From Vitis vinifera (taxonomy: Eukaryota > Streptophyta > Magnoliopsida > Vitales > Vitaceae), in NCBI RefSeq assembly GCF_030704535.1, contig NC_081818.1:29034001-29098000 (forward strand): a DNA stretch of 64,000 nucleotides, read 5' to 3'. This document shows positions 1 through 45,460 of this stretch, one piece after another. Each line of letters starts with the position of its first letter. Within the stretch, counting starts at the first letter, position 1. A program made the translations under genes and the position numbers. Under the pieces are notes generated by a model. That model saw only the letters and a list, made by a program, of their open reading frames with translations. It was not told the origin of the DNA and did not search any database.

Positions 1-126
1 TGGAAAAGGTCTAGATACATATAATTAAAGCAATTAATTTAATAAATAAAATAAATTTGATAAAATCGTTATCTTGATAGAGTAAAATTAAAATAGGAAA
101 ACAAGGAGCTAGTCATGTAATCTTAC

Positions 127-2017
127 CTGGTGCAATATACCCATAAGTGCCTACAAGAAGAGTCTGAATGGATGAATCAGGATCTAGTAGTCTAGCGGTG
201 CCAAAATCTGATACAAAAGCTTCAAGTTGTGAATTCAAGAGGACATTATTGCTTGATATGTCCCTGTGAATGATGGGTGGGGAACAATCATGATGCATGT
301 AAGATAAAGCATGGGCAATACTTTTGACAACATTCAGCCTCTTAGTCCAATCCAACTCTAGAGCCTCAACTTCATGGCTTAACATGCAAAATAAGCTTCC
401 CCGTTCCATGAACTGGTAAACCAAAAACATGCTTCTTCTATGTAAACAGAAGCCATGAAGTTTCACAATGTTTCGATGTCGTATCTTGGACAATATTTGT
501 GCCTCATTTTCAAAACTTTTCAGGTAGGTGGGCTCCTCCCTTTCCCATCCATGAAGCTTCTTCAAGGCTACAACTTTTCCACATGGCAGTTGTGCCCTGT
601 AAACGCTGCCATATCCTCCAACACCTACACAATATTTGATGTCAAAATTCTCCGTTGATTGGATTATGTCTTGGTAAGCAATTGTTCCATCATAGTCCCA
701 TACGGAGAACAAATCTCCCCTTCTTGTTTCTGCTGCGCTTGCTGACATGTGTCGCATTTTTCTCATCTTTCTTGGAAGGAGGAGAAATTTAAGAAATGCA
801 AATGCAATGCACAAGGTGGCAAGTAGAGAAATAACAAGGATGAGCGTGATTTTTTGTCCCTTTTTGCAGTGTGGCCAGTGTCTGATTTCTCCACATAAAT
901 GTTTGTTGTGCTCAAATACCCCCGGGGGAGATTCAAACTGCAATTCGAAGGGTATGTGACCCTCCAAATCATTGTATGATAAATCAATGGATGTCCACTT
1001 GTAGTCATAGGTAAGCGAGGGAGGAATGGCACCTGAAAGTTTGTTACGAGAGAGATTCAAGTTCTCTAACCTCTTCAAGTTTTGGATTTGGGATGGTATC
1101 TTCCCACTGATCGAGTTACTACTTAAGTCCAAATCAACCAAGTCCTCGAGGTTTCCAATATCTTCAGGGATGGGGCCGTTGATTTGATTATTATTGAGAC
1201 ATAGAGAAATTAAATTGGAAAGATGGCCAAAAGATGAAGGGATGTCACCACTGAGTTCATTCCAAGAGAGATCAAAGTAGGTGAGTTTAGCGAGAGCACC
1301 TAGTTGGTGTGGGATGCTGCCATTGAGTACATTGTTAGAGAGATCGAGGTAGGCGAGTTCAGTAAGAGTATCTATCTCGTCTGGGATGCTACCGCTAAGT
1401 TCATTGCTATAGAGATCGAGGTGGGTGAGTCTAATAAGAGTTCCTATTTGTTGCGGGATCCTACCATTGAGCTCATTATGGGAAAGATCGAGGTAGTTGA
1501 GGCTAGTAAGAGTGTTTATTTGGGGCGGTATGCTACCACTGAGTTCATTCCTAGAGAGATCAAGGTAAGTGAGCTTAGTAAGAGTAGCTATTTGGTCTGG
1601 GATACTACCACTGAGTTCATTACGAGAGAGATCAAGATAAATGACCTTAGTAAGAGAACCTATTTGGTGTGGGATTCTGCCACTGAGTCTACCGTCGTGA
1701 AGATCGATGGTTCTGAGGCTGGGAAATGAAGAAAACTTTAGTTTGCTAAGTTCACCGCTGGCTCTATAGTAAACTGCAATGACATGTCCCTCCTCGTTGC
1801 AAGTTATGCCAGACCAGTCGCAATGATCAGAATCATGATCATGATCAGTCTCCCCACTCCACCAACCGGACTCAAGCAGTGCTTCCTTCTCAACCTGTGA
1901 TTGATTAGAAGAAGGATGAACATGAGCACCATGTGTGAACACCATGTTCATCATCACCATCACCACCACCACCACCACCAAATTACTAAATATGAAAGTA
2001 GTCTTCATATTTTTCAT
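127..2017 (-). CDS. LRR receptor-like kinase copy 1, exon 1 (MIK2/At1g35710-type), cut by window edge
   Basis: Plasma-membrane receptor kinase. The 630 codons read as signal peptide, N-terminal cap with a CDWSGITC motif, about 11 LRRs of 24 residues (LDLSxNxLxGxIP), one TM segment (about 390-415) and a kinase domain with glycine loop GVGGYGS (about 463), HRD in IIHRDISSN (about 581) and DFG (about 603), so an RD-type kinase. The start ATG at 2017 is followed by a hydrophobic, valine-rich leader. The exon ends at 127 after GTYGYIAP plus one base, with donor GTAAGATT at 126. RLK copy 2 has the same intron at the same codon and phase, so the last exon (ELAYT... in copy 2) should lie beyond the left edge. 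No stop or frameshift is seen. The MIK2-type assignment is by family recall; the ligand is unknown. The gene could be functional, but the missing exon cannot be assessed. Confidence 0.88.
1948..1980. repeat. CAC/CAT trinucleotide repeat in a signal peptide
   Basis: A run of CAT and CAC triplets on the plus strand. On the coding (minus) strand it reads GTG/ATG and encodes a poly-Val/Met stretch in the hydrophobic core of the RLK copy 1 signal peptide. Confidence 0.85.
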
Positions 2018-2050
2018 CTGATTATTGTCTCAGTTCTTATCTCCCACACA

Positions 2051-9278: not shown

Positions 9279-10164
9279 TTAAATTACATGATTCTTCAAC
9301 TGGTTTAGTGAAATTGCGTAAAATGGTAACATAGGAAATGGTACATCAATAAGGAGATTGTAGGATAATTGTTGCATTGTTGGACAACATTGCGGCTTTG
9401 AATGGATGCATTTGAGTGCCAAAAATGTCACAAAAACTACATCTTTAGCAACCCTTGGATCTTCAGGCAATATGAGACGTGGATCCAATACATCTCTTAA
9501 CATTATATCTTGGCTTGATGAGGATGACAATGAGGTGAGCAGATCGCTTGGATGTTTTCCTATCATTGTCTCTAGTGCCACCACCCCAAAACTATAAACA
9601 TCGGATTTCTCAGTTACTTTCATGGTATAGGCAAGCTCTGTCAAATATAAAAATGAAAAACAAATCATTAGACATGATAAAATAATTCGTGAATGCTACA
9701 ATGAAATAAAAGGATTAAAAATGGAAAAATTAGAAGTTATGGTAATGTTTCTCAATTAGAACCACTCAAGCATAGAATACATTAATAGAAAGAAAAGTTT
9801 AGATATGAAATTTGTATCACCATTAGCTAGCCCAATTCTAAAATTGAGATCATGAGAACTGTTTGTGAAAATTTTTCAAAGTCTAAACTAAAGAATTGGT
9901 CATCTTACCTGGTGCAATATAGCCATAAGTGCCTACACGAAGCGTTTGATTGGATGAATCGGGATCTAGTAGTCTAGCAGTGCCAAAATCCGATACAAAA
10001 GCTTCAAGTTCTGAATTCAAGAGGATATTATTGCTTGATACATCCCTGTGAATGATTGGTGGAGTACAGTCATGATGCATGTAGGATAAGGCATGGGCAA
10101 TGCTTTTGATCACATTCACTCTTTTAGTCCAATCCAACTCCCTAGCTTCAACTTCATCTCTTAA

Positions 10165-10483
10165 TGTTAAGCAAGCAAACAATAGAATCGCGGAATAATG
10201 GAAGAAAACAATCACACAAGAACAAACACAAGATTTACGTGGTTCGATCAAAGTGATCTACGTCCACGGGCAGAGAGCGAGCAATTCTATTTCACTATTG
10301 AAAGACGGCTCATGCACCTTCTTACTTACATATGTTTTCCCAAGCCACCTATTTATAGAGTTTACAAACCTTAACCCTAAAACCCATTTAAAACAATAAG
10401 ACTCGGCCCATTTAGCCTTAGCCCATGTTTTACAAGGATAGCTTCAACATATTACAAAGGAAAAAAATCAATTCAACTCAACA
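10165..10483 (-). repeat. 3' LTR of the copia element
   Basis: 319-bp LTR lying left on the plus strand. It matches the partner at 14597-14915 except for one T/C difference in the aaacc(t/c)taacc stretch. Confidence 0.95.
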
Positions 10484-10569
10484 ATTCTCCACCTTGAATT
10501 GAGTTTTCTTTCTTCTTTCAATTCAGAATATAGAACTACTCATCTGCTACGCCCCGAAGGGCCTCAAGC

Positions 10570-13500
10570 TCAAACTTTGCAAACATTCACCAAGTCCAAG
10601 CTATGCTTGAACTTTTCAGTAGTAATTGGCTTAGTCAACATATCTGCAGGATTAACTTCCGTGGCAACCTTCTCAATGGAGAATAACTTTTCTTCGATCA
10701 CATCACGAATAAAGTTCAACCTAACATCAATATGTTTTGTCCTCTCATGATAAACAGGATTCTTTGCCAAACACAAAGCACTTTGACTATCACAATAGAT
10801 AACCGGCTTAGACAAATTCAAACCCAAGCTGCCAAGAAAACCATTTAACCACATACCTTCTTTCACCCCTTCTGTCAAGGACATGTATTCCGTTTCAGTT
10901 GTAGATAAAGCAACTGTTGGCTGCAAAGAAGCTCTCCAGCTAATAGCACACCCAAACATAGTGAAAATATAACAGGTCAATGATCTTCTCTTCATGAGAT
11001 CTCCTCCATGATCAGAATCAGTAAACCCAACCAATCCACTAGATACATCACCATTCCCATACACCAAGCATACACTACTTGAACCCTTCAAATATCGCAT
11101 AATCCACTTGACGGCTTCCCAGTGAGCTTTACCAGGATTACTCATGAATCTGCTTACAACACTAACAGCAAAAGCAAGATCTGGTCTAGTGCACACCATA
11201 GCATACATTAAACTACCAACCACACTAGAGTAAGGCACACTCTTCATGTACTCCACCTCCTCATCAGTGCTAGGCAATGTACTATGATCAAATTTAAAAT
11301 GTTGAGCCAATGGAGTACTCACCGGTTTAGAGTGATCCATATGGAAAGCCTGCATTAACTTCTCAATGTATTTTTGCTGTGAGACATACAACAAGCCTGC
11401 ATCTCTGTCTCTCCAAATCTCCATCCCCAAGATTTTCTTAGCTGCACCCAAATCTTTCATCTCAAACTCACTACTCAACAACTGTTTCAGTTTGTTAATT
11501 TCAACTCGATTCTTAGCTGCAATCAACATGTCATCCACATATAGCAACAGATAAATAAATGAGCCATCAGGCAATGTTTTAAAGTAAACACAACTATCAT
11601 ACTGATTTCGCATAAACTCATGAGAAACCATAAATGCATCAAACCTCTTGTACCATTGCCTAGGAGATTGCTTCAACCCATACAAGGACTTCTTCAAAAA
11701 ACACACATGATCAGACTTTTCAGAATCAACAAATCCCTCAGGTTGTTTCATATAAATTTCCTCTTCTAGATTTCCATGCAGAAAAGCAGTTTTAACATCA
11801 AGTTGATCAAGCTCCAAGTTAAAAACGCTTACCATCGCTAAGAGGACTCGAATAGATTTATGCTTCACAACAGGTGAGAACACTTCATTGTAGTCAATCC
11901 CCTCCTTTTGTGAAAAACCCTTCGCCACAAGCCTTGATTTGTACTTAGGTGGTTCATCCTCTGAAATCCCATCCTTTATTTTGAAAAGCCATTTACAATC
12001 AACAGGTTTCACTCCTTCAGGCAAAGGCACAAGCTCCCAAGTTTGATTCTTTCTCAATGATGCCATCTCGTCATCCATGGAACTTAGCCACTTTTTCGAG
12101 TCTTTACTTTCCATCGCCTCCTTATACGACCTTGGTTCCTCCCTTCCTATCTCTTCAGCCACTGCTAAAGCAAAAGCAACAGGATTAGTGATGTTAGCAC
12201 TAACACAATCCACATACCTCATAGGTCTCCGGATTTCCCTTCTTGGTCTAAGTGCTGCTATACTCTGTGAATCATTCTGGTCGATCACGGGTTGTTCTTC
12301 AGATGTGTCATCTACACCATTTTCCATTGGAGCATCGACCTCAAACTCCACCTTCTGGTTAGCACCCAGATCAGTTTTACTAGTACCTGCAAGATCACCA
12401 AACTGGCCAAACATAGCAGATTCATCAAAGGTCACATCTCTGCTAATAATAAATTTTGGGGTTCTATCTTCAATACACCACAGACGATAACCTTTCACCC
12501 CAGTCGCATACCCTAGAAATATGCATTTCATTGCCCTAGGCTCCAGCTTGCCATCACTAACATGAGCATATGCAGGACAACCAAATATTTTCAAGCCAGA
12601 ATAATTAGAGGGTTTACCGGACCATACCTCTTGAGGAGTCTTAAAATCAATTGCAGTCGATGGCGATCTATTTACCAGATAAGCAGCAGTGTTAACTGCT
12701 TCAGCCCAGAACTTTTTCGACAACCCAGCGTCTATCCTCATGCATCTAGCACGCTGTACAAGTGTTTGGTTCATCCGTTCTGCAACTCCATTTTGCTGTG
12801 GCGTATGTCGTACAGTGCGGTGCCTCACTATACCTTCTTTTCTGCAGAACTCGTCGAAATCCTTGTTACAGAATTCCAACCCATTATCTGTTCTGAGTGT
12901 CTTGACTACTTTTCCAGTCCGTTTCTCCACCATAGTCTTCCACTCCTTGAACTTCCCAAACACTTCATCCTTTGCTTTCACAAAGTACACCCACACCTTT
13001 CTAGAGAAGTCATCAATAAAAGTAACATAGTACTTGCATCCACTATGAGACTCCACCGGAGAAGGACCCCATAAATCAGAGTGAATATACTCAAGAACTC
13101 CATTAGTAGTGTGACTACCCATACTGAACTTCACCCTACGTTGTTTACCCATAACACAAGTTTCACAGAATTTCAGCTTCCCGGTCTCAGCACCACTTAA
13201 TAGCCCTTGCTTACTCAAGATAGAGAGCCCTTTCTCACTCATGTGTCCCAATCTTCGATGCCACAACTCAGTACAATTATCTTTCTTCTCTACAGAATCA
13301 ATAGCCATGGAGCTTGACACAGCCGCCGTTCCCAACACTGAACTTCCCATCAATGTGTAAATCCCATGCTGTAATCTGCCTTTCATCACCACAAGAGCTC
13401 CTTTTGACACCCTAAGAACTCCACCACTCCCAGAGAATGTGTACCCATTTTTATCCAGTGTACCCACGGAGATCAAATTCTTTCGCAGTCCAGGAACATA

Positions 13501-14547
13501 CCAAGCATTCAATGTCCTAACCAACCCGTCATACATTTTAATCTGCACAGAACCACTGCCTTTGACACCCAGCTCCCCATCATCTCCCAACTTTACACTT
13601 CCGTTCCACTCTTTAAAAGTAGTGAACAGATCTCGTGAATAAGCCATGTGATACGAAGCACCAGTATCCAAGATCCATGATTCTGCAGAGCTAGATGTAC
13701 TAACAGTTAAAACATCTCCTCCTTCTCCCTCGTCAGAACTATCCTGTTTTTCAGAATCTTTCTGAGCTACTACAACCTGCGCATTTCCATTCGACCCCTG
13801 ACCAATTCCCTTCTGCCTTTGTGGACAGTTCTTTCTAAAGTGCCCTTTCTCTTTACAGTGAAAGCATCTCATTGCAGCCTTCGATTTAGGACGCGACTTA
13901 CTACGTCCTCCACCATTTCGTTCCATGCTCCTGCCCCTACTCACAGTTAACCCAGTCTCCACACTGCCTTCCCCAGAACCAGAAACTAATTTCTGCAATT
14001 CTTTAGACTGTAGAGCATCCTTAACATCATTTATCGAGATACTATCCCTACCATACATCATAGTATCTACAAAATTTTCATAAGAGCTAGGCAAAGAACA
14101 TAACAAAATCATGGCTTGATCCTCTTCCTCAACTTTAACACCAACTCCATTCAAGTCTAAAATAATTCTGTTAAAGTTGTCAAGGTGATCTCTTACCTGC
14201 ATACCTTCTGACATCTTCAAAGTATGCAATCGCCTTTTCTGATAAAGCCTGTTGGTCAGTGACTTTTTCTGGTATTTGCTTTCAAGCTTCCTCCACAAGC
14301 CAACTGCAGTAGTTTCATCAGCTACTTCCCTCAGAACTTCATCTGCTAGACTCAATAGAATCGCACTATGTGCCCTAGACACAACTTCCTCCTTCTCTGC
14401 TGCTGTCAATCCTACAGGTAATTTTTCTTCCCCTTCTATTGCTTGTGCACACTTCTGCTGAACCAGAAGCGCCTTCATCTTCAGCTTCCACAAGGTGAAA
14501 TCATTCGACCCATTGAACTTCTCAACTTCGAATTTCTGTGAAGACAT
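10570..14547 (-). CDS. Copia gag-pol polyprotein, intact
   Basis: 1325-residue polyprotein of the retrotransposon. The frame also contains an upstream GTG inside the primer-binding site, but the first ATG is at 14547 (MSSQKFEVEKFNG), the usual copia gag start. Domains in order: UBN2-type gag; CCHC zinc knuckle CFHCKEKGHFRKNC (about 227-240); aspartic protease WILDTGAS (about 292); gag-pre-integrase zinc module with WHRRLGH and CETC; integrase core with D in HSDLWGP (about 489), D in RTDNGLEF (about 553) and E in NGVAER (about 590); reverse transcriptase with YVDDMLIA (about 1002); RNase H with TDSDHGGD, STTETEY and YCDSQSAL (about 1174-1250). All catalytic residues are present and no stop interrupts it. 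Length is typical for TNT1-like elements. Confidence 0.95.
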   Translation of the reverse strand: MSSQKFEVEKFNGSNDFTLWKLKMKALLVQQKCAQAIEGEEKLPVGLTAAEKEEVVSRAHSAILLSLADEVLREVADETTAVGLWRKLESKYQKKSLTNRLYQKRRLHTLKMSEGMQVRDHLDNFNRIILDLNGVGVKVEEEDQAMILLCSLPSSYENFVDTMMYGRDSISINDVKDALQSKELQKLVSGSGEGSVETGLTVSRGRSMERNGGGRSKSRPKSKAAMRCFHCKEKGHFRKNCPQRQKGIGQGSNGNAQVVVAQKDSEKQDSSDEGEGGDVLTVSTSSSAESWILDTGASYHMAYSRDLFTTFKEWNGSVKLGDDGELGVKGSGSVQIKMYDGLVRTLNAWYVPGLRKNLISVGTLDKNGYTFSGSGGVLRVSKGALVVMKGRLQHGIYTLMGSSVLGTAAVSSSMAIDSVEKKDNCTELWHRRLGHMSEKGLSILSKQGLLSGAETGKLKFCETCVMGKQRRVKFSMGSHTTNGVLEYIHSDLWGPSPVESHSGCKYYVTFIDDFSRKVWVYFVKAKDEVFGKFKEWKTMVEKRTGKVVKTLRTDNGLEFCNKDFDEFCRKEGIVRHRTVRHTPQQNGVAERMNQTLVQRARCMRIDAGLSKKFWAEAVNTAAYLVNRSPSTAIDFKTPQEVWSGKPSNYSGLKIFGCPAYAHVSDGKLEPRAMKCIFLGYATGVKGYRLWCIEDRTPKFIISRDVTFDESAMFGQFGDLAGTSKTDLGANQKVEFEVDAPMENGVDDTSEEQPVIDQNDSQSIAALRPRREIRRPMRYVDCVSANITNPVAFALAVAEEIGREEPRSYKEAMESKDSKKWLSSMDDEMASLRKNQTWELVPLPEGVKPVDCKWLFKIKDGISEDEPPKYKSRLVAKGFSQKEGIDYNEVFSPVVKHKSIRVLLAMVSVFNLELDQLDVKTAFLHGNLEEEIYMKQPEGFVDSEKSDHVCFLKKSLYGLKQSPRQWYKRFDAFMVSHEFMRNQYDSCVYFKTLPDGSFIYLLLYVDDMLIAAKNRVEINKLKQLLSSEFEMKDLGAAKKILGMEIWRDRDAGLLYVSQQKYIEKLMQAFHMDHSKPVSTPLAQHFKFDHSTLPSTDEEVEYMKSVPYSSVVGSLMYAMVCTRPDLAFAVSVVSRFMSNPGKAHWEAVKWIMRYLKGSSSVCLVYGNGDVSSGLVGFTDSDHGGDLMKRRSLTCYIFTMFGCAISWRASLQPTVALSTTETEYMSLTEGVKEGMWLNGFLGSLGLNLSKPVIYCDSQSALCLAKNPVYHERTKHIDVRLNFIRDVIEEKLFSIEKVATEVNPADMLTKPITTEKFKHSLDLVNVCKV

Positions 14548-14596
14548 CTTCCTTCTGCAGATCTGAACCCAGGTGTTTGTGGGCTCTGATACCACT

Positions 14597-14915
14597 TGTT
14601 AAGCAAGCAAACAATAGAATCGCGGAATAATGGAAGAAAACAATCACACAAGAACAAACACAAGATTTACGTGGTTCGATCAAAGTGATCTACGTCCACG
14701 GGCAGAGAGCGAGCAATTCTATTTCACTATTGAAAGACGGCTCATGCACCTTCTTACTTACATATGTTTTCCCAAGCCACCTATTTATAGAGTTTACAAA
14801 CCCTAACCCTAAAACCCATTTAAAACAATAAGACTCGGCCCATTTAGCCTTAGCCCATGTTTTACAAGGATAGCTTCAACATATTACAAAGGAAAAAAAT
14901 CAATTCAACTCAACA
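14597..14915 (-). repeat. 5' LTR of the copia element
   Basis: 319-bp LTR holding the presumptive promoter. Its inner end CTTAACA is followed on the minus strand by two spacer bases and the initiator-Met primer-binding site. Confidence 0.95.
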
Positions 14916-16287
14916 CTTAACATACAATACAAGCTTCCTCTTTCCAAATAATTGCAAATTAAAAACATGCAGCTCTGGTGTAGGCAATAACCATGAAGTT
15001 TCACAATGTTCTTATGCCTTAATTTTGTCAACATATGTACCTCATTTTGAAAGTTTTTCATGCATGCTGGCTCCTCACTTTCCACCCGGTGAAGTTTCTT
15101 CACGGCAACTACTTTTCCACTAGGCAACTGTACCTTGTATACACTGCCATGGCCTCCAGTACCTATGCAATATTTGATATCAAAATCTTCTGTTGCTTCA
15201 ATGATGTCTTCATAAGCAATCCTACCATCATAGCCCCATATTGAGAACAAATCACCATTTTTTGTAGTTGTTGCTGCCTCTGATTGAATTTTTCTTTTCT
15301 TCAGACCAAGGAAAAGAATTGAGGGATGAAATCTTCTTTTCTTCCTCCAAAGGGAAAGAAACCCAAGGATTAAGGCTACAAGAAACAAGGTGATGAAGAA
15401 AGAGATGCCAAAGGTGACAATTGTGATTTTTCGTCCTATCTTGTGGTGGGACTGGTCTTGCGATTCCAAAGGTGTATGACCCTTCAAACCATTGTGTGAC
15501 AAATCAATTGATTTCCACTTGTGGCCATGGCCTAGAAAGGAAGGAATGGAGCCTGATAATCTATTATAAGAGAGATCCAAAGTTTCTAACTTCTTCAAAT
15601 TTTGGAGCTGGTGAGGTATCTTTCCCCTAAGTAAGTTATAACCCAGGCTCAACTCGACCAGGTCCTTGAGGTTTCCAATTTCTGGAGGGATGAAACCATT
15701 GATTTGATTCCGAACAAGGTTGAGAGAAGTCAATTTAATGAGATAGCCCAAAGATGAGGGAATGACACCAGAGAGTGCATTATAAGAGAGATCAAGATAG
15801 GTAAGTTTTGTAAGAGCGCCTAATTGGTACGGGATATTGCCGTGGAGTTGATTATAAGAGAGATCAAGGTAGATGAGGTTAGCAAGATTACCTATTTGAT
15901 CAGGGATGCTACCAGTGAGACCACAAATGCTAAGGTCGAGATGAATGAGGCTAGGAAATGAAGAAAACTTCCATTTGCTGAAGCCACTCGGCACTGCAGT
16001 GTGGCACGACATCAAGTTCATTATCTTAATGACATGCCCTGCCTCATTGCAAGTTACGCCAGACCAGTGGCAATGATTAGAAATATTGCTCTCCCAGGAC
16101 CAGCAACCGGAGCTGCGGAGAGCCTCAGCCTCAGCCTGCGACTGAGGAGAAGAATAAATTGGTGCAGCATGTGAAGAGCCCATGCAAACGATCACCACCC
16201 ATGCTACTACTGCTCCCACCACCACCCTAGATATCGAACTCTCCATTTTTTTCATTTGATTAATGTTTCAGTTCATAGCTCCCAGTA

Positions 16288-17212: not shown

Positions 17213-17430
17213 CTAGTTCTAGGATGAGATTAAGTGGCAAAGTGTCGCCCCTTCCATGTTTTAATAGGGAATTGGAGGCTAGTGGAGCATATCATCAACA
17301 CATGTTGAATCTTTATTGTGTCTTGGAATGTCCAGCATATAGTTTATCTATTATTTAACTTATGTTCAAGAATGCTATGCTTTTTAACTTTTGGTATATA
17401 CAGTGGAATCATATATTAAGGAGAGTTAGA

Positions 17431-18614
17431 TTGGTGGGATACAATCATGATGCATGTAGGATAAGGCATGGGCAATTTTTTTTAACAATATTCACCCTCT
17501 TAGTCCAATCCAATTCCACGGCCTCAACCTCATTGCTCAGCATACAATACAAGCTTCCCCTTTCGACGTACAAATAAATGAGAAACATGCATCTATTATG
17601 CAGACGATAATTTCACAATGTTCGTATTTCTTCTACCATCCATACCTCATTCTTAAAACTTCTCAAGTATGCCAGCTCCTCTGTTTTTTATTGATGAAGT
17701 TTCTTCACAGCAACCACTTTTCCACTGGGCAATTATGCTCTATAAACACTGCCATAGGCAGGCAACACCTATGCAATATCTGATATCAAAATCCTCAGTT
17801 GCCAAGATGATTGTTTGAACTTGTCTTTTGTTCCACCAAAGGAAAGCAAACCCCAGTATCAAGGTTACAGAAAACAAGGTGAGGGGCAAAGAGATGATAA
17901 TGGGGAGTGCGATTGTGTCTCCTCCATTGCACGGGGAAGGTGTATAACTCTCCAAATGATCATTGTGGGATAAAATAATTGCTGCTGCCCGCTTGCAATT
18001 GTGGGTGAGAAAGGAGGGGAAGGTGCCTGATGGTCTATTATCAGAGAGAGAAGTAATTTAATCTCTTCAAATTCTTAAGCTAGGAAGGCATCTGTCCAAT
18101 GATTCAGTTAGTATGGAGGTCCAAAAAGACAAGATTCTTAATACTTCCGATTTCTCGAGGGATGGATCCATTGAGTTGGTTGGAAGCAAGGTTGAGTGAA
18201 GTTAAATTGGTAAGATGGCCTAATGATGAAGGGATGGCACAGTGAGGCTATTCCTAGAAAGATCAAGAAAGGTGAGGTTAGAAAGAGTACCTATCTCGTC
18301 TGGGATGCTACCATGGAGTCCAACACCGGCAGTGTGAGATGAATGAGGCTGGGAAACGAAGAAAACTTTAATTTGGTAAGCTGGCTTACGCCCATGAGTA
18401 CATAGTAATCTGGCTGCCTTAACCGATTGGCATGTCCCAACTTGTTGCAAGTTATGGCGTACTATTTGCAGTTATCAAAATCACCGCCCTGCCACATCCG
18501 CCTAACGAAGTTGCTGAGAGCCTCGGCCTCGGCCTGAGAGAGAGTAAAGCAATGAACCATATTCACCATCAACACCACCACAAGACGACATATCAAGCAC
18601 TCCATTTTTCCCAT
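17431..18614 (-). pseudogene. LRR receptor-like kinase copy 3, decayed
   Basis: Minus-strand relic of the same family. The start MGKMECLICRLVVVLMVN (ATG 18614) and the LSQAEAEALSNF cap are followed by a stop. LRR pieces (LHGSIPDEIGTLSNLTFLDL at about 18250-18320), a TM stretch around 17880 (ISLPLTLFSVTLILGF), a shortened juxtamembrane part with DFDIRYCIGV, and kinase fragments as far as the ALSYMHHD region follow in shifting frames. Homology stops at about 17431, so the catalytic loop and C-lobe are gone. It is a paralogue of RLK copy 2 and is beyond simple repair. Confidence 0.85.
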
Positions 18615-29390: not shown

Positions 29391-30664
29391 ATGGGGGCTA
29401 GGAAAAGCGTTAGAAAGGGTAGTTTTGGAGTGGAGTCGAAGTCATTTGAGGTCGTGGTGGAGGAGCAGAAAGGTAAGGTGCAAGCTACGATTGTGGAAAG
29501 GAAAGAAAAGGAGGGATCTCCTCGTGGATAAGGCTGGGATCGAAGAGCATTGGGTTCTTTTTCGATGGTCTGGTTCTTTGTATTAAGAACACGGGATCTG
29601 GTAAATGGGAAAGAAAGTGGAGGGAAAGTGGGAGGGCCTACTCTCTGGTGCGGGATCAAAATAAGAGGGAGTGTTTTATTCGATTAGAGGTTGCGGACCT
29701 GGAAAACAAAAGGTTCTGCATCTTTATTCCAAAAAGAAGAGGAGCTAAGGGTGGTTGGGTTTCAATGGTGGAGACGCTACGACGATTGGGTTTTACTAAC
29801 GGAGAAGAGGGATGCCAGAAAGAAGAAGCGCTGTTGTCAAAACCCAGCATGGGGAAAACCTACGCGGAAGTGGCTAAGCAGCCAAAAGGAAAAGAAAAAG
29901 CAGCAATTCGGGTGGAGATAAGAAAGAAGGAGCTGAGCCGAAACTTAAATAAGCTGGCTCACCGTTTGGTTGGGATTTGGAACCCTAGCTCTGTGAGAGG
30001 GGATGACCTAAGAAGTTGGGGGACCTATTTGGCGAATATTTGGAGATTGAAGGGTAATCTAGGGCTAGCGAAATTGGAAAGGGGCAAAGTTTTACTCGAC
30101 TTTGAGTTTTTGGCAGAAGCAGAGAAAGCCCTAAAAATCGAGGGTATTTCGGTTGGGGCGTCTCTCCTTCACTTGGAGAAATGGAGGCTCGAGTTGGGAT
30201 GCCTAATGGATGGGGAGAAAAGGAGCGAGGCTTGGGTGCGTATTGTGGGATTACCCGTTTCCTTATGGGATCGGGCCATTCTGAGAAGGATAGGGGAGGA
30301 GTGCGGGGGCTTCCTCACAATCGATTCCCAAACGGAGAAGCTGGAGGATTTGCAGTGGGCAAGGATCCTGGTGAAGCTCAACGGCGAGAAGCTTCCCAAC
30401 GTGGTGGAGGTTTGGGCTGAGGATTTATGCTACGAGGTAACCCTCTGGTGGGAGGTCAGGTCAGTCCTAAGAACGGCAATGGCAAGAAAGAGCAGAAACA
30501 TTGTCGGTACAGAAGGCAAGGTTGGGGGTGAGGCCATCAAACTTGCGGTCGAGCGCGTGAGGGGGGAGGACAACGCCCCGAGGTTTGAGGACCTGCTACG
30601 ACCTGCTGTTGGGATGAGGGGGCAAACTAGTGGGTCGAGGCAGGCCATGGGCCATGTTTGGTGA
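29391..30664 (+). pseudogene. LINE ORF1 (gag-like, DUF4283-type), frameshifted
   Basis: Begins MGARKSVRKGSFGVESKSFE. It needs a frame change near 29505-29515 to continue as [17 protein letters not shown] and on through [18 protein letters not shown] to the stop at 30664. The middle ([42 protein letters not shown]) is the DUF4283-type nucleic-acid-binding domain typical of plant L1 ORF1. From about 29560 to the end the frame is open. The product would coat LINE RNA. Confidence 0.75.
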
Positions 30665-31605: not shown

Positions 31606-34600
31606 ATGAAGTTAAGGTTGTTGAGCTGGAACGTGCGTGGAGCTAACGATAGCTTTAAAAGAAAGGTGATCAAGACCATGATTAGAAGTCAGAGGGTGGA
31701 TTTGTTCTGTATCTAGGAAATTCAGACAATGTCTGAGGGTGTGGTGAGGAGTTTGGGCTTTGGGAGGTTTCTTGATTGGGGAGCCATGGGTGCTCAAGGC
31801 TCTGCGGGTGGGATTTTGATCTACTGGGACAAAAGGTCCCTGGAATTGCTGAAGATGGAGGTGGGACAATTTTCTATTTCCTGTAGGCTCAGGAATGTTG
31901 AAGATGGGCTTGTTTGGATTTTCACTGGAGTGTACGGGCTGTTCACCAAGAAAGAAATGGAGACTATGTGGGAGGAGCTAGGGGCAATAAGGGGCATCTG
32001 GGATGAGCCCTGGTGTTTAGGGGATGACTTTAATGCCACCCTCTCCCAAAGGGAAATGAGTAGTCAGGGTAGTTTAAATGGTGCAATGAGAAGGTTTGCT
32101 TAGGTGGTTGATGAACTAGAGCTCCTAGATTTTCCTCTGCAAGGGGGTGTGTTATCCTGGAGTGGGGGTAGGAACAATCAGTCCTGGGCTAGACTGGATC
32201 GTTTCCTGGTGACCCAAAGCTGGCTTGACTTGTTTAGGGGGTTGTCCAAAGTAGGCTTCCCAAGCCCACTTCAGATCACTTTCCCATTCTGTTGAAGAGT
32301 GGCGGGCTAAGTTGGGGACCCTCCCCGTTCAGGTTTGAAAACATGTGGCTTAAAGTTGATGGTTTTAAGGATCTCTTTCGGGATTGGTGGCAGGGAGCGG
32401 GGAGGAGAGGAAGGGTCAACTTTAGACTGGCTGCTAAGCTGAAGGTGTTGAAGGAGAAAATCAAAGTTTGGAACATGGATGTGTTTGGTAGGCTGGAAGT
32501 TAATAAAAGCTCAGCTCTCTAGCAAGTTGATTTTTGGGATAGGGTGGAATGTGAAAGGGGTCTGTCAGAAAAAGAAACGGAGTTGAAAAATGAAGCTAAG
32601 GAAACCTTTAAAAAGTGGGTGCTTTTGGAAGAAACCCATTGGAGACAATTGTCAAGGGAACTGTGGCTAAAGGAAGGAGATTAGAACACAGGGTTTTTCC
32701 ACCAGATGGCCAATGCCCACTGGAGAAACAACTCTTTGGATAGAATCAAGATCAATGGGGTGGAGTTGGCTGAGAAGCAGGAGGTGAGGGAGGGGATTGT
32801 GAATGCTTTTCAGCAACAACTCTTGGAAGAGCCAGGATAGAGAGCTGACATTGAGGGGTTGCACCTTCAATGTCTAAACCACAGTGAAGCTGAAGCTCTG
32901 GAGCTGCCCTTTATTGAGGAAGAAATTTTCTTAGCTCTGATGGAACTGAACGGAGACAAGGCTTCAGGCCCAGATGGGTTTTAAGGAATTTTATGACCAT
33001 AAATCTTTTGCCAAAAGTCTAAATATTACCTTCTTGGTCCTCATCCCAAAAAAAGGTGGGGCTGAGGACCTCGGGGATTTTCGGCCTATCAGCCTATTAG
33101 GGAGGCTGTACAAGCTTCTGGCCAAAGTGCTGGCCAATAGGCTGAAGAAGGTGTTAGGTAAGATGGTCTCAGCGGATCAAAATGCGTTTGTGAGGAGGAG
33201 ACAGATTTTGGACGCCTTTCTCATAGCTAATGAGGTGGTTGATTATTGGCAGAAGCGGAAAGAGAAAGGGCTGGTTTGCAAACTGGATATTGAAAAAGCC
33301 TATGATAGTATTAATTGGAACTTCCTCATGAAGGTTTTGCACAAGATGGGCTTTGGGTCTCATTGGATGGAGTGAATTTGGTGGTGCATCTCAACTGCAA
33401 AATTTTATGTTCTTGTCAACGGGGTGCCAGCAGGCTTCTTTTCCAGTTCAAATGGGTTGCGTCAAGGAGATCCCATTTCTCCTTACCTTTTTGTTTTGGG
33501 TATGGAAGTGCTGAGTGCACTTATAAGAAGGGTTGTTAATAGGGGCTTCATTTCTGGTTGCAGACTTCGAGGGAAAGGGGGGATGGAGATGAATGTGTCC
33601 CACTTGCTCTTTGTTGATGACACAATCATCTTCTACGAAGCAAGGAAGGAGCATCTAACTCATCTTGGCTGGATTTTGGCGTGGTTTGAGGCGGCTTCTG
33701 GTCTTAGGATTAATCTGGCTAAGAGTGAATTAATTCCTGTTGGGGAGGTTGAAGATATTGAAGATATGGCTGTGGAGTTAGGGTGTAGAGTGGGGGATTT
33801 TCCTGTTAAGTATTTGGGGCTGCCCCTTGGAGCCCATCACAAGGCCTTGTCTATGTGGGATGGGGTGGAGGAAAGTATGAGGAGAAGATTAGCTCTTTGG
33901 AAAAGGCATTACTTGTCTAAGGGTGGGAGAATTACCCTCATTAAAAGTACATTGGTCAGCATTCCCATCCAATTGTCCCTTTTTCGAATGCCTAAGTTAG
34001 TGGTAAAAAGGCTTGAAAATTACAAAGAGATTTTCTTTGGGGAGGGGGAAGTCTGGAAAGGAAAATCCACTTAATCAATTGGGAGGTGGTGTGCACTCAA
34101 AAGGAGAAGGGGGGTCTTGGCATTCGGAAGATTGTTTTATTGAACAAGGCTTTGCTGGGTAAGTGGATATGGAGATTTGCCTTTGAAAAATATCTATTTT
34201 GGAAGAAGGTGATCGGGGTGAAGTATGGCCAAGAGGGATGTGGTTGGAGAACTAATGAAGCTCGTGGTATTTTTTGAGTGGGGGTTTGGAAGGAGATCCT
34301 GAAGGAGGCAAGTTGGTGTTGGGATAACATTGAGTTCAAGGTGGGAAGGAGGACTAAGGTCAAGTTCTGGACTGACCATTGGTGCGACAACGCAGCGCTG
34401 TCCCAAAATTTTCCCCAACTTTTTGCCATGGCGGTCTTTAGAAACGCAATGGTCAATGAAGTGTGGGATTCAAGCCTTGGTCAAGGAGGGTGGAATCTCA
34501 AATTGTCTAGAGATTCTAATGATTGGGAGCTGGATTTAATAGAAGAGCTACTTCTTTTGCTAAGGGACTTCAGGATTTCTTCAGAAGAGGACTCAATGTT

Positions 34601-38396: not shown

Positions 38397-40341
38397 TTAC
38401 AACGCCAGTAGGAAGTAGTAGACCAATGCTATTGGCAGTGCAATGAGCATGCCAAAGATTACCCTATATGCAGAACAAAATCATATCTCAAAATCTACTT
38501 GGATTTTATGCAAAGTTCAATTGTTAGGTTGCGTAGAAACATCAATTACCCGGTGCTCAAGATGTCTGGATGGACATCATACTCTTTGGCAAAAACAAAT
38601 GGAACAATTCCTTGAGGAAGGCATGCCTGCAGAATACAGCACATTATTTAGGATTGTAACCTCATTTTAGACTACAGGAGGAAAAAAAAAATTCGAGCAC
38701 CTGCACAATTGACACTTTAAACAAGGTGCCCCTCGAGAGAGTGATACTGGCAGATGCTGCCATTATTGCAGGGCCTACTAAGAACTTCATTCCCATGGCT
38801 AATACTGCCAGCCGGGTCCCACATGCTATAATGCTTGGACGTGAAGCCATGAAAAGACCTGTTGAGTGACATGAAAAGGAGTTGAAGAGAAAAATTATTT
38901 AGTGGTTTTTGTGTGGTCACTGTCAGAAATTCTTGGCAATTAAATACTGATGCTTAACCATACCTAAGCTGAACATTGCCATACCAAGTCCTCCTTTTGA
39001 CAATATTGATATTGAGTCATCAACAACCCCTGGCAATTTTACATTCCACCTACAACAGGTTCAAACCTTTTGCTTTGGTCACTCAAGAGACTAGGAATTT
39101 TTTGGGCTATCCAACCTTAAGCTGAATAATTTAATGACATAAAAGAATTTGTGATCTGTGTGGTGCTCCTGAAAGCTTACCTGAAGCGTATGCATGCCCA
39201 AATAAGGCTGACTATAGTTGCATGAGTATTGGGGTTCATCATGAGCTTTCTTCCCACTATGCGGAGAATGAGCATCGTCTTGGTTTTTCTTGTAGCTGTT
39301 GTTTTTCCTTCCTCCCTTTCCTCTTTCGGTTGTGCTTCTTGTGGGGCCTCCAGCTCCACTTAAAAACAGAAAATGAATTATGGACTTTAAATGAAAAACA
39401 CTTGCAAACACAAATGTAATAAAGTAATATTGGGATTGATGTTGGACCATGTGATAGGATTTTGGACCAAATGCCAATTTGATAAGTTGATATTATTGTG
39501 ACTCTATGTAGAGATTGAAGATTACTACGATGTTAGTGTGTTTACATACATTTGTTGATGTTATAGAATTTCGAAGGCAATTCTCCTAGGTTGGATGTTA
39601 GCTGATACACATGCAAATGAAATGGAGAGAAACCTAAAAGGACTTGTAACTAACTTGGGTTATCTTCTGTGATCAGAGTTGGCTGCACTGAATTAAGATT
39701 GAGTCATGTACTAGGCATTCAAATTAGGCTACAGAAATGACAGGCTCATTACATGAACGCCAGCTATATGCATGATGTAATTGATATTGTGAAATCAATA
39801 GCCTCCAAATGCATTGAATAGTTGAATACCTACCTGCAGCCTCTAATGGTGTTGTTGCTGACACTGCCTTCATGGCATTGAGCTCAAAAAGAAACAGCAA
39901 CAGGTTGTACCAAACTAAGCTCTGCAAGACAACTATCTGGGAAAGGAGTCCAGCAGCTTTATCCCCATACATGGCCTTCAGGAGTGGAATTCCCAGGATC
40001 AAAGTGTTGGGCAATGTTGACAAAGATAGCCCTGTTATGACCCAAGTCAAGCTTCCTCTGGAATTAATTTTTGCAATTGTTGCCAATAAAATGAGGGCAA
40101 GCAGTTTCTGAAGAAAGTCGGAGAGTATGAGTCTCATATTCATTTGGTAGGGGTTGTTTTCAGAGATCAACTGGAAGGACAATAGTGGAATTGAGAATTT
40201 TGCCACAAACTTGTTGATGCCTGAGCATTGTTCTGGTGTGAAGATCTTCCACCACTTCACAGAGATGTAGGCTAAGATCATGACAAAATACAAAGGGATA
40301 GTGGCTGCCACAACGTGGTAGACATCAGCCAGAGAAATCAT
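38397..40341 (-). CDS. PIN8: Short-loop PIN auxin efflux carrier, PIN8-like
   Basis: Auxin carrier of the short PIN class, which in Arabidopsis acts at the ER and controls intracellular auxin. Six exons on the minus strand: 39834-40341, 39181-39358, 38964-39049, 38701-38858, 38550-38626 and 38397-38463. All are GT-AG and the phases fit, giving 357 residues. The N-terminal TM bundle contains [23 protein letters not shown] and [19 protein letters not shown]. The central loop is short and charged ([18 protein letters not shown]), unlike the long loop of plasma-membrane PINs. The C-terminal bundle contains [58 protein letters not shown] and [21 protein letters not shown]. Sequence is closer to PIN8 than PIN5 as I recall them. 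It is intact. Confidence 0.93.
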
Positions 40342-42287
40342 GGCAGCTCTTGGTCAAAGGGTGTTGGATATCTACTGCTTTTATATTACTCCTATGAACC
40401 CTTGGTGATAAAACTGTAATATGGTCTCTTGGTTGCTTTGCTAGATTATTGAAAACGAAAGGCGGGATTGCTTGTTTTAATTAAAAGCTTCCTCAAAAGT
40501 TTTCTCAATTCCCAGGATAACCTTTGGCTGAGATTATGTTTTTCAGGATCCAAACATAGTCCTTACTTTTCCACATATACTCTTTTCGTAATTTTGATTG
40601 TCAATGTTTCTTATATGATATGATTTAAATTAATCTACTTTTGGTGTGTGTATATATAAATTCTGTTGTGATATATAAACTAACAACGGTAAAGATGGTT
40701 ATCATACAGTTAAGAGGATTTCTTTATCAACGAAAATTCAGGATATTTTGGTCACAAGTAAAAAGGTTGATTCCAGTTTTCTTGTGGTTTTGTTCTGTTG
40801 GCCTATTGGTTCTTTTGGCAAAGGAGAGCTATAGGCTAACCCTAAACCTTTCCCAATAGGCTTTAAATTTTATAAACACGATTTTAAAGATTAAAAAAGG
40901 AAAAGGATACTCATGTTCTCTGTTTTTCCTTCATCATCAATATATTTGTGGTATTTTAGTCATTTAATCTGCTATGCTGGTGATTTTGGCCTGCTGCTCT
41001 GACTGATGCATTCCTTTTGTTTTACAAAGAATAAAGTGCAAATGACCAACATGCCATTTCTTTATCGAAATGGATGGTGTGTCCCTTCATTCTAGGTATT
41101 TTTTACTTATGATCTACATTGCTTTTGAATTTGTCTTTTCAGGTTATTCACAAATGGTAGGAGGGAAGAATAAAGAAGTGTATTGCAAGAGAAGTAATTG
41201 AGATAATGAGTTAATAACAGTGGCGAAGGAAGAATTTTTGTTTAATTTGGTCAAAAGTTTGAGAATAAGTGTTGTGGGGAATTTGCTTTTTAAAATGTGA
41301 AATTTTGCCAGAAAAGACCTATTCCTCTTTCTTCAAGTTGTCTTTGTTTTGGGACTGAAAAAATATCCTATACATTGTATGTTTTCCATGATCACCATGA
41401 GATTAACAGGACATCCATGACTATTTTCTAAAGGCACACCCACAAAAACCTTTAGAAGTTTCAAAAGTCGAGTGAATCTCTCTGCTAGTAACTTGCAAGC
41501 TGACCTGAATGCAGGGTTCCCCAGATTCTACCACCACTTGACCATAGTGGAGCTAAAGGTTGTCTGATGCTTGTTGGGTGAAGAGAGGGGGAATGAGGAA
41601 CAGAATTATGATCAGATTGCATTCCCCGACTTGGAGGAATTTATGCAGGTTTGGTTGGCACCACCACCCAGTATCATCTACTTCAATTCTCGTGGTTGAC
41701 AAATTTCAACGACAAAGTCTATTCTCCAAAATCTGTCTGCACTTTTCTGGTACAAACTACAACTGAAACTGGTACACATTCTGTATTTCTACGCTGAGAA
41801 CACATGGTTTCTGGAGACACGATGTATGTTAAACATCACAAGCATGATGCACTTCAACATTTGATTGATTGAGAATTTGAGATAACAAAATGATATCATT
41901 TGGGTTTCCAGAATTGGATGTAACTTGGTTTTCAGGTGATGCCACAAAAGTAGATTCCTTGTGGTTTTTAAGTTTTACAGTAAGGCAACTCAGCCATCAC
42001 CATTAGGGGTAAAGCTGAGTTGGGTACTCCTGAAATTCATTTTTAACCCAGATCATCATAGATTTCTGAGTTGGGTATTCGAGATCAAGCCATCTTAGCG
42101 AAAAGCTTAATAAACACATGCGCGCGCACACCCACACGTGCTGTGTTAAAAGAAAATATCAAAATACATCTTAGAAGATTTGCTTTAGTTAGAAAGCATC
42201 CAATAAGCAAAAGTGCAGTACATTTAGCAGCATCTTCACTCGTATTCCAGTACTGTTCTCACAATAGAAGGAAAGAATGTTGTTTGT

Positions 42288-43807: not shown

Positions 43808-45460
43808 ATGATCATGAAAATGGGGGCATATAAGTTCAGTAGTCTTTTGTTGTTGTCTTTCTTTGCATTTGCTGTGTTGGCTCCGTCGATTCGAGCCCAC
43901 ATCGGAGAATTTGATGAGGTGTGGCAGAAGCGAGCTGAGGAGGCCCAGAAGGCTGCATTGGAGGCCTATCAACCGAACCCGGAAGAGGTCACCAACCAGT
44001 TCAACAAGAATGTCCGCAAGTGGGTCTTATCTTAACTAGACCAATATTTATTAGTCCAATCATTGTCTTAGTCATCTCTTACCCAATAACTTGAACAAGT
44101 TAAGCTTTTGGTCGAAACAGTAGCTCTTACCAGGTTTGGTAAAATCATTGGCGCAGGTCCATGCAGGGAACCAACACAACGAGGAGGAACTTGAGGAGTA
44201 ACAATGGTCCATGCATGGCCACGAACCCTATCGACAGGTGCTGGAGATGCAAGCAGGACTGGGCTAAAAACCGAAAGAAGCTAGCTGACTGTGTGCTGGG
44301 GTTCGGGCGCAGGACTACAGGAGGAAAGGATGGAGAATTCTATGTGGTAACTGATGCCTCAGACAATGACATGATCGACCCAAAACCCGGTACTCTTCGC
44401 CATGCTGTGATCCAGAAGGAGCCACTGTGGATCATATTTGCCCGCGACATGATAATAAGGTTGAAACAGGAGCTGATCATGGCTGGCAACAAGACCATCG
44501 ATGGCCGTGGGGCTAATGTTCACATTGCATATGGTTGTGGCATTACTATACAGTTTGTGAAGAATATCATCATCCATAACCTCCATATACATGACATTGT
44601 TCCTGCTCAAGGTGGGATGATTAGAGACTCTGTAGATCATTATGGCCTCAGAACTGCCAGTGATGGAGATGGGGTTTCGATATTCGGCTCATCCAACGTC
44701 TGGGTGGATCATCTCTCCATGTCCAACTGCAAGGATGGGCTTGTTGATGTGATCATGGCATCCACAGCCATCACCATTTCAAACTGCCATTTCACTAATC
44801 ACAATGAGGTAGTAGAAAAAATTAAGTAGAAACCATCCCTTCTGAGAATTCACAAATTCTGACTATTTATGATTATAAGGATGAATATGGGGATGATGGC
44901 GCAGGTGATGCTGTTTGGTGGCAGCAATAATTTCCAGGGCGATAAGATCATGCAAGTGACAGTGGCATTCAACCATTATGGAAGAGGACTAGTCCAGAGA
45001 ATGCCAAGATGCAGATATGGCTTCGTCCATGTTGTCAACAACGATTACACTCACTGGCTCATGTATGCCATTGGTGGTAGCCAGAACCCCACCATCATAA
45101 GCCAGGGGAACCGGTTCATCGCCCCTCCAAATATGGCTTGCAAGGAGGTAAACAAAAAATGGTAGTCCATGACTGATACTAATATAGGAGGATTTTTGAC
45201 TCATTTGAGTGGCTTTTGTTGATGGGGTTGGGCAGGTAACCAAGAGGGACTATGCAAGCCCAGATGAGTGGAAATCTTGGACATGGATCTCACAAGGGGA
45301 TCTGCTACAAAACGGAGCATTCTTTGTTCAGTCTGGAGACCCTAAAAAGAAGCATCCATTCACCAGGTACGACATGATAAAGGCGAAGCCTGGCACATTT
45401 GTTAACAGGCTCACTCGCTTTTCGGGGTCGCTGGGCTGCAAGGTGAACCAACCATGTTAG
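43808..45460 (+). CDS. Pectate lyase (PL1 family), pollen-type
   Basis: Secreted enzyme that cleaves de-esterified pectin by beta-elimination. Exons 43808-44019, 44157-44808, 44905-45147 and 45236-45460 are all GT-AG and frame-consistent, giving 443 residues. A signal peptide (cut near SIRA/HIGEF) is followed by a plant Pec_lyase_N segment ([13 protein letters not shown] to FNKNVRK), then the parallel beta-helix: [111 protein letters not shown]. The Asp residues of the calcium site and the Arg of RMPRCRYG are present. [19 protein letters not shown] and [12 protein letters not shown] resemble tomato LAT59-type pollen lyases. [14 protein letters not shown] departs from the usual LLGHSDxxxxDK. 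The gene is intact. Confidence 0.93.

Follow-up and report, generated by a model that had tools for sequence, protein, structure and literature searches.

Did a single recent retrotransposon insertion disable a receptor kinase gene in the grape reference? The question is raised by a 64,000-nucleotide stretch of Vitis vinifera DNA (contig NC_081818.1, positions 29,034,001 to 29,098,000, forward strand; hereafter the window, to which positions refer unless another contig is named), in which a complete Ty1/copia element lies on the minus strand at 10165-14915, inside exon 1 of an LRR receptor kinase gene. A first-pass annotation had given the locus as 9909..16255, a range that holds exon 1 and the element but omits exon 2 (9279-9637). 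The features of the locus are as follows:

14916..16255, minus strand: host exon 1, 5' part, with the N-terminus, LRRs, transmembrane segment and kinase N-lobe to YCML (frame open from the ATG; Pfam matches to LRR and Pkinase)
15434..15481, minus strand: site of the missing LRR C-cap, in frame, which most paralogues have (paralogue alignment)
15296..15337, minus strand: extra juxtamembrane stretch, about 14 residues relative to paralogues (paralogue alignment)
14916..14920, no strand: target-site duplication CTTAA, right copy (sequence)
14597..14915, minus strand: 5' LTR of the copia element, 319 bp, with TATAAATA at LTR position 127 (sequence)
10570..14598, minus strand: gag-pol reading frame, uninterrupted, 1342 codons (ORF; domains on three pieces)
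10165..10483, minus strand: 3' LTR of the copia element, 319 bp, with the private T at 10371 (LTR comparison)
10160..10164, no strand: target-site duplication CTTAA, left copy (sequence)
9909..10159, minus strand: host exon 1, 3' part, with the catalytic loop (HRD) and DFG, to the split APE codon (alignment, Pfam)
9638..9908, minus strand: host intron, GT...AG (splice sites)
9279..9637, minus strand: host exon 2, kinase C-lobe to the TAA at 9279-9281 (alignment)
9384-9386, minus strand: Cys codon in exon 2 (Arg in 15 of 16 paralogues; position counted by eye)

Both LTRs of the element are 319 bp long (10165-10483 and 14597-14915), have TG...CA ends and differ at one base only (10371 T / 14803 C), and both copies of the flanking CTTAA duplication are perfect (10160-10164 and 14916-14920). 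Paired, near-identical 319-bp repeats together with a target duplication are not the product of chance. Two bases internal to the 5' LTR lies TGGTATCAGAGCC, which we take to be a primer site for the initiator-Met tRNA. The gag-pol frame is uninterrupted for 1342 codons from stop to stop, and Pfam analysis of three separate pieces of it identified copia gag, zinc knuckle, gag-pre-integrase, integrase and RVT_2 domains. With rve at 12502-13647 and RVT_2 at 10573-11940, both on the minus strand, the integrase lies upstream of the reverse transcriptase; the assignment to Ty1/copia is based on this order, on the LTR ends with a 5-bp duplication and on the tRNA primer site by the 5' LTR.

When the flanks were joined by script with a single CTTAA, the host frame was open through YCML/RDEVEA, giving a two-exon reading of 649 codons from the ATG at 16255 to the stop at 9279-9281, with an intron (9638-9908) that has canonical GT and AG. 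No further stop or frameshift was found in exon 1 or exon 2 over these 649 codons with the element removed. The first-pass annotation was borne out in each of these respects: exon halves adjoining the element with a perfect CTTAA duplication, a kinase frame restored by a one-CTTAA join, LTRs differing at 1 base in 319, and exons 1 and 2 otherwise free of stops and frameshifts.

Pfam identified LRRs and a kinase in the two exon 1 parts, HRD and DFG are present in the alignment, and a transmembrane segment was recognized by eye. Among PDB chains, the top match to the 5' part of exon 1 was Arabidopsis MIK2 (MDIS1-interacting receptor like kinase 2; 8wec, E 1.1e-127), with a GSO1 chain nearly equal (1.2e-127), and by sequence the host gene is a MIK2-like LRR receptor kinase. 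MIK2 is a receptor for SCOOP peptides; the label 'immune-type' for the grape receptor reflects similarity, not function. Within the grape genome the next best match to the exon 1 3' part was 89%, and, judged by this part alone, the host gene has no closer duplicate. Nucleotide identity to copy 1 (L009) climbs to about 0.9 in the same part. Other paralogues are likewise more similar there than in the preceding part, to a lesser degree than L009, and gene conversion with copy 1 was considered.

Branch omega of the host kinase was 0.25-0.26 versus 0.18 elsewhere, a difference that was not significant under three topologies (p 0.16-0.23). Omega of 1 on the host branch was rejected (p 1.6e-7), and values of 0.45 or more were rejected at 0.05. 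These results support constraint on the host kinase for most of its history, and since the point estimate lies above that of the other branches a short neutral stretch on the host branch is possible.

Whether the element is the sole lesion, as had been proposed, is less clear: the claim stands for stops and frameshifts, but the host gene has several in-frame peculiarities. Its ectodomain, 273 residues to the transmembrane column, is the shortest among the paralogues compared (357-700 in 12 others read from a Met). The cysteine-containing LRR C-cap, present in 11 other full-length paralogues, is absent from the host gene and from L020 and L021. Between the transmembrane segment and the kinase lie 60 residues, versus 42-48 in paralogues, and the kinase subdomain XI Arg, found in 15 of 16 others, is Cys in the host gene, as in L019. 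The receptor may thus already have been altered or weakened before the insertion. Carried further, the short ectodomain, lost C-cap and Arg to Cys change would mean that the gene was drifting or decaying and that the element hit a weakened or near-dead gene. Consistent with this, the point estimate of omega for the host branch is a little above the others, and decay is common in this paralogue family: of the 19 paralogous loci L009-L027, read crudely, six (L013, L014, L015, L017, L022 and L023) carry a stop or a broken frame in exon 1. However, 649 codons free of stops and frameshifts with kinase motifs kept, and the rejection of omega of 0.45 or more, argue against prior decay. The peculiarities are moreover shared in part by other loci, the open-frame L020 and L021 also being without a normal C-cap and L019 also having Cys at the Arg position, and the kinase columns altered in the host copy alone number 5, inside the range of 0-9 seen in 12 of 13 other full-length paralogues. 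We consider prior decay unlikely.

What we regard as very probable is that one recent retrotransposition event, by a Ty1/copia element with full coding capacity, split the kinase exon of a MIK2-like receptor kinase that was old and, until recently, under constraint in the grape reference lineage. With the element inserted in the same orientation as the host gene, transcription from the host promoter would enter the 5' LTR and the frame would stop five residues into it (YCML-SVELN-stop), so that the product would be at most a truncated membrane protein, with a short ectodomain and a kinase N-lobe but no catalytic loop, and kinase signalling would be lost. Such a product could conceivably act as a functional decoy or dominant-negative receptor, as the 5' part codes for LRRs, a transmembrane segment and part of the kinase and a stop follows soon inside the LTR. 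We think this improbable: the ectodomain is short and without a C-cap, and no sign of selection for a truncated product was found. The receptor might also survive with a small in-frame change if the element were spliced out as a large intron, and a host GT lying 10 bases ahead of the element would join in frame to an AG 7 bases beyond it, at a net cost of four residues near YCML. Yet this candidate donor agrees with the consensus at 5 of 8 positions, five donors within the LTR have better scores, and joining to a better-scoring AG, 5 bases beyond the element, yields a stop, making rescue by splicing very improbable.

How recent was the insertion that split the exon? At rates of 6.5e-9 and 1.3e-8 per site per year, the one LTR substitution gives an age of 0.12-0.24 My, with a 95% range of 0.003-1.3 My across the two rates. 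The T at 10371 is derived and private to the 3' LTR of this element, the other 11 of the 12 LTRs with matched context having C (the context was unmatched in 18 more LTRs). The data support a young insertion, in agreement with the earlier figure of about 0.1-0.25 My, but with a single substitution the dating is loose. A date from a single element's LTRs is also open to gene conversion, which could have homogenized the LTRs of an older insertion; we judge this highly unlikely, as the ORF is intact, the duplication is perfect and seven further copies elsewhere have two or fewer LTR substitutions.

These copies belong to a family with at least 18 members in the same genome, 15 two-LTR elements and 3 lone LTRs. 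The LTR-family search returned at least 41 matches, 34 of which were grouped by position into the 18 copies; one 83-base fragment and six matches of less than 70 bases were dropped. Among the 13 LTR pairs dated, from 15 two-LTR elements, 8 have two or fewer substitutions (0, 0, 0, 1, 1, 1, 1, 2; one zero-substitution pair carries an indel) and the remainder 3 to 6. We infer that the element is a member of a recently active low-copy family. Beyond what the first-pass annotation had described, a sister copy with identical LTRs (C13:294622-299377, contig 13) splits the reading frame of a second LRR receptor kinase, whose host frame, over the part read, is likewise open.

Flanks of 17 copies were surveyed for ORFs of 80 codons or more (1.5 kb for ten, 4 kb for seven), with the three longest recorded on each side, and ten of the recorded ORFs were scanned with Pfam; exons shorter than the cut-off would escape. 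Of the 8 copies that show at most two LTR differences, 2 lie in receptor exons, versus 0 of the 10 others (Fisher p 0.18), copy numbers too small to show a positional bias. The two receptor insertions fit published copia targeting, Arabidopsis copia integration being described as H2A.Z-guided into environmentally responsive genes (PMC6668482). Like other plant copia elements, the grape family may be able to land in the bodies of such genes, as the sister copy appears to have done in the second LRR receptor kinase. A bolder and rather doubtful proposal is that grape is seeing a recent burst of the family with integration steered to LRR immune-receptor gene bodies, such that cultivars would carry different sets of switched-off surface receptors, the two single-lesion knock-outs (contigs 13 and 14) marking the process in the reference line. 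The insertion was seen in one near-homozygous assembly. Because S-SAP bands of eight grape retrotransposon families were 54.5-94.7% polymorphic among seven V. vinifera accessions (PMC2576258), it is plausible by analogy that an intact allele of the host receptor segregates among accessions.

If this account is correct, two receptor kinases are naturally knocked out in the reference line of a major crop, element-free accessions would provide ready-made comparisons for what both receptors do, and a woody crop would join the case for copia elements striking environmental-response genes. In gene models derived from this reference, both receptors may be absent or broken in two. Among the matches listed in a search of titles and abstract openings, we found no paper that names the locus or places the element within a receptor gene, which is no proof of absence.

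The host gene resembles Arabidopsis MIK2, its top PDB match, and differs in having a much shorter ectodomain without a C-cap. The insertion has parallels in three systems. Arabidopsis ATCOPIA93 and ATCOPIA78 are likewise Ty1/copia elements with gene-body and exon insertions and defence-related genes among their targets, whereas experiments and chromatin data are available there and positions in one genome here (PMC6668482). In tomato, an exonic COPIA insertion in the NLR gene Ph-3 (CC-NB-LRR) is associated with transcript truncation (PMC7426864); what the two cases share is a resistance-type receptor with a copia element in an exon, and truncation, here predicted, while the receptor class differs and population and transcript data exist for tomato. 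The third parallel is with the grape Ty1/copia families of Moisy et al. 2008 (PMC2576258), in which families are delimited by at least 79% RT identity. Element size and LTR length fall in the ranges reported there, with 5-bp duplications and many recent copies, and among the ten new families uninterrupted ORFs are given for Cremant, Edel and Noble only. Compared by published end letters only, Brand and Rangen have LTRs of the form TGTT...AACA as in the present element, and Noble has the same primer site, TGGTATCAGAGCC.

The retrotransposon in exon 1 of the MIK2-like receptor kinase gene (copy 2) is a 4751-bp copia element in minus orientation, bounded by two 319-bp LTRs that differ at one position. 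It ends in TG...CA and is flanked on both sides by CTTAA. Its internal frame spans 1342 codons from stop to stop, and domain matches were obtained on three separate pieces of it (copia gag and zinc knuckle; gag-pre-integrase and integrase; RVT_2). The host gene lies on the same strand. When the flanks are joined with a single CTTAA, the host frame comprises 649 codons in two exons, with an intron bounded by GT and AG, confirming the interrupted but restorable frame described in the first-pass annotation. The insertion separates the kinase N-lobe from the catalytic loop, and without joining, the frame running into the element stops after SVELN, soon inside the LTR. The insertion would thus be expected to yield a truncated transcript, and the truncated product would lose catalytic signalling. 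A weak alternative is that the element is removed by splicing; an in-frame splice pair is present around it, though a weak one. The PN40024 line, the probable source of this genome, is reported to be ~99.8% homozygous (PMC10199708), so no second haplotype is expected.

The single LTR difference, a base private to the 3' LTR among the 12 family LTRs compared at that position, had been taken to indicate an age of ~0.1-0.25 million years. At 2.5e-9, a slower rate for perennials, the insertion would date to 0.63 My. We obtained 0.24 My (95% 0.006-1.34 My) at 6.5e-9, the rate applied to grape in PMC2576258, and 0.12 My (0.003-0.67 My) at 1.3e-8; the proposed age is reproduced as a point estimate, but with wide ranges. 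Pooling the eight family copies with at most two LTR differences gave 0.18 My (0.07-0.39) at 6.5e-9 and 0.09 My (0.03-0.19) at 1.3e-8, values biased young because these copies were selected for low divergence.

Whether the element is the sole lesion, as had also been proposed, is less clear. No other stop or frameshift was found in exon 1 or exon 2, but alignment with 16 paralogous readings (ten displayed beside the interrupted copy) revealed a short ectodomain, with 273 residues up to the transmembrane column versus 357-700 in the 12 others read from Met. The cysteine C-cap is absent from the interrupted copy and from paralogues L020 and L021, and present in the 11 other full-length paralogues. 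From the transmembrane column to the kinase there are 60 residues, compared with 42-48 in the full-length others. Cys also occupies the column of the subdomain XI Arg, which pairs with the Glu of APE; Arg is kept in 15 of the 16 other readings. Exon 2 of L019, a contig 14 paralogue, has the identical Cys. At five kinase positions where the other full-length paralogues are all identical, the interrupted copy differs; this is not unusual, since the equivalent count is 0-9 in 12 of 13 others (27 in the distant L027). Decay is common among these relatives: on a crude reading, 6 of 19 fetched loci carry an exon 1 stop or frame break. Overall, the earlier interpretation is only partly supported. The neighbouring features are as follows.

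Other features in the window
116-2029: copy 1 (L009), an open LRR receptor kinase, exon 2 just beyond the window
17429-18318: third receptor-kinase copy, a relic whose frame is broken, lying upstream of the interrupted gene
29477-30664 and 33376-34074: ORFs matching DUF4283 and RVT_1, probably parts of a non-LTR element
39724-40353 and 44143-44829: ORFs matching Mem_trans (PIN-like) and pectate lyase

At 9909-10159, and in that stretch only, identity to copy 1 climbs to ~0.9, a possible gene-conversion tract. Across 315 kinase codons the interrupted copy and copy 1 differ with dS 0.77 and dN 0.135. A codon model, run on the kinase codons of 6 of the 11 sequences retained for constraint analysis, gave an omega of 0.25-0.26 on the interrupted-copy branch versus 0.18 elsewhere; two ratios were no better than one (p 0.16-0.23 across three topologies). 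On that branch omega 1 was rejected (p 1.6e-7), as was any value of 0.45 or more at 0.05, with 0.40 borderline (p 0.051). The omega and dS results indicate that the gene lineage is old and its kinase constrained through most of its history; the branch may include a brief neutral stretch.

Disruption of a receptor kinase by a retrotransposon is already known as a kind of event; more interesting is that a sister copy splits a second receptor. A genome-wide LTR search gave at least 41 matches, 34 of which were grouped into 15 two-LTR elements and 3 lone LTRs. LTR pairs were dated for 13 elements; eight pairs show 0-2 substitutions and the other five 3-6. Five copies, including the one in the window, have LTRs at least 98% like those of the window element (contigs 14, 1, 13, 12 and 18 at 33.0 Mb).

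Sister copies in or near receptor-type ORFs
C13:294622-299377: identical LTRs, CGTAG on both sides
C18:33002759-33007198: located 238 bp past an ORF that matches C-JID, which is found in TNL receptors

Judged from its flanks, the contig 13 element splits a second LRR receptor kinase, with a joined frame open as far as read. Each flank has an open frame that comes within two bases of the junction; one encodes LRRNT_2 and LRRs, the other LRRs together with Pkinase. Once the two flanks are joined by script, a single frame stays open from Met, across the LRRs and the kinase, up to the limit of the 1.5-kb flank; the last exon lies beyond the reading. The element has the orientation of its host gene, as at the window locus. 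The catalytic loop reads HCD rather than the HRD of the window receptor, so this is another kind of LRR-RLK. The contig 18 copy at 33.0 Mb is probably internally deleted, since its LTR spacing is ~300 bases shorter than that of the window element (4123 versus 4432). No junction-reaching ORF of 80 codons was found in the flanks of the contig 1 and contig 12 copies. The contig 18 copy at 27.19 Mb has a junction ORF with a weak Enolase_N match under the curated cut-off, unscanned ORFs extend to the junction in the copies on contig 6 and, at 20.24 Mb, on contig 3, and an LRR ORF begins 479 bp from the contig 9 copy at 21.7 Mb. Beyond the window and contig 13 copies, no split receptor exon was seen among flanking ORFs of at least 80 codons, ten of which were domain-scanned.

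To estimate chance we assumed 260 LRR-RLK genes, given as the dicot average in PMC5380761, of an assumed 3 kb each (0.16% of the 495.6-Mb, 21-contig genome), and left out the window copy because it was ascertained. Under these assumptions the chance expectation of one or more hits is 1.1% with the seven other young copies (at most two LTR differences) and 2.6% with all 17 copies outside the window, or 2.2% and 5.2% with gene number doubled, the LRR-RLK class having been picked only after the hit had been seen. Receptor-exon hits number 2/8 among young and 0/10 among other copies (p 0.18); adding the C-JID and contig 9 LRR neighbours gives 3/8 and 1/10 (p 0.27). Because of these p values and the choice of class after the hit, the second receptor hit is no more than suggestive. 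It agrees with the copia targeting reported in Arabidopsis, rice and yeast (PMC6668482), and with the pathogen-response genes reported among tomato COPIA insertions (PMC7426864).
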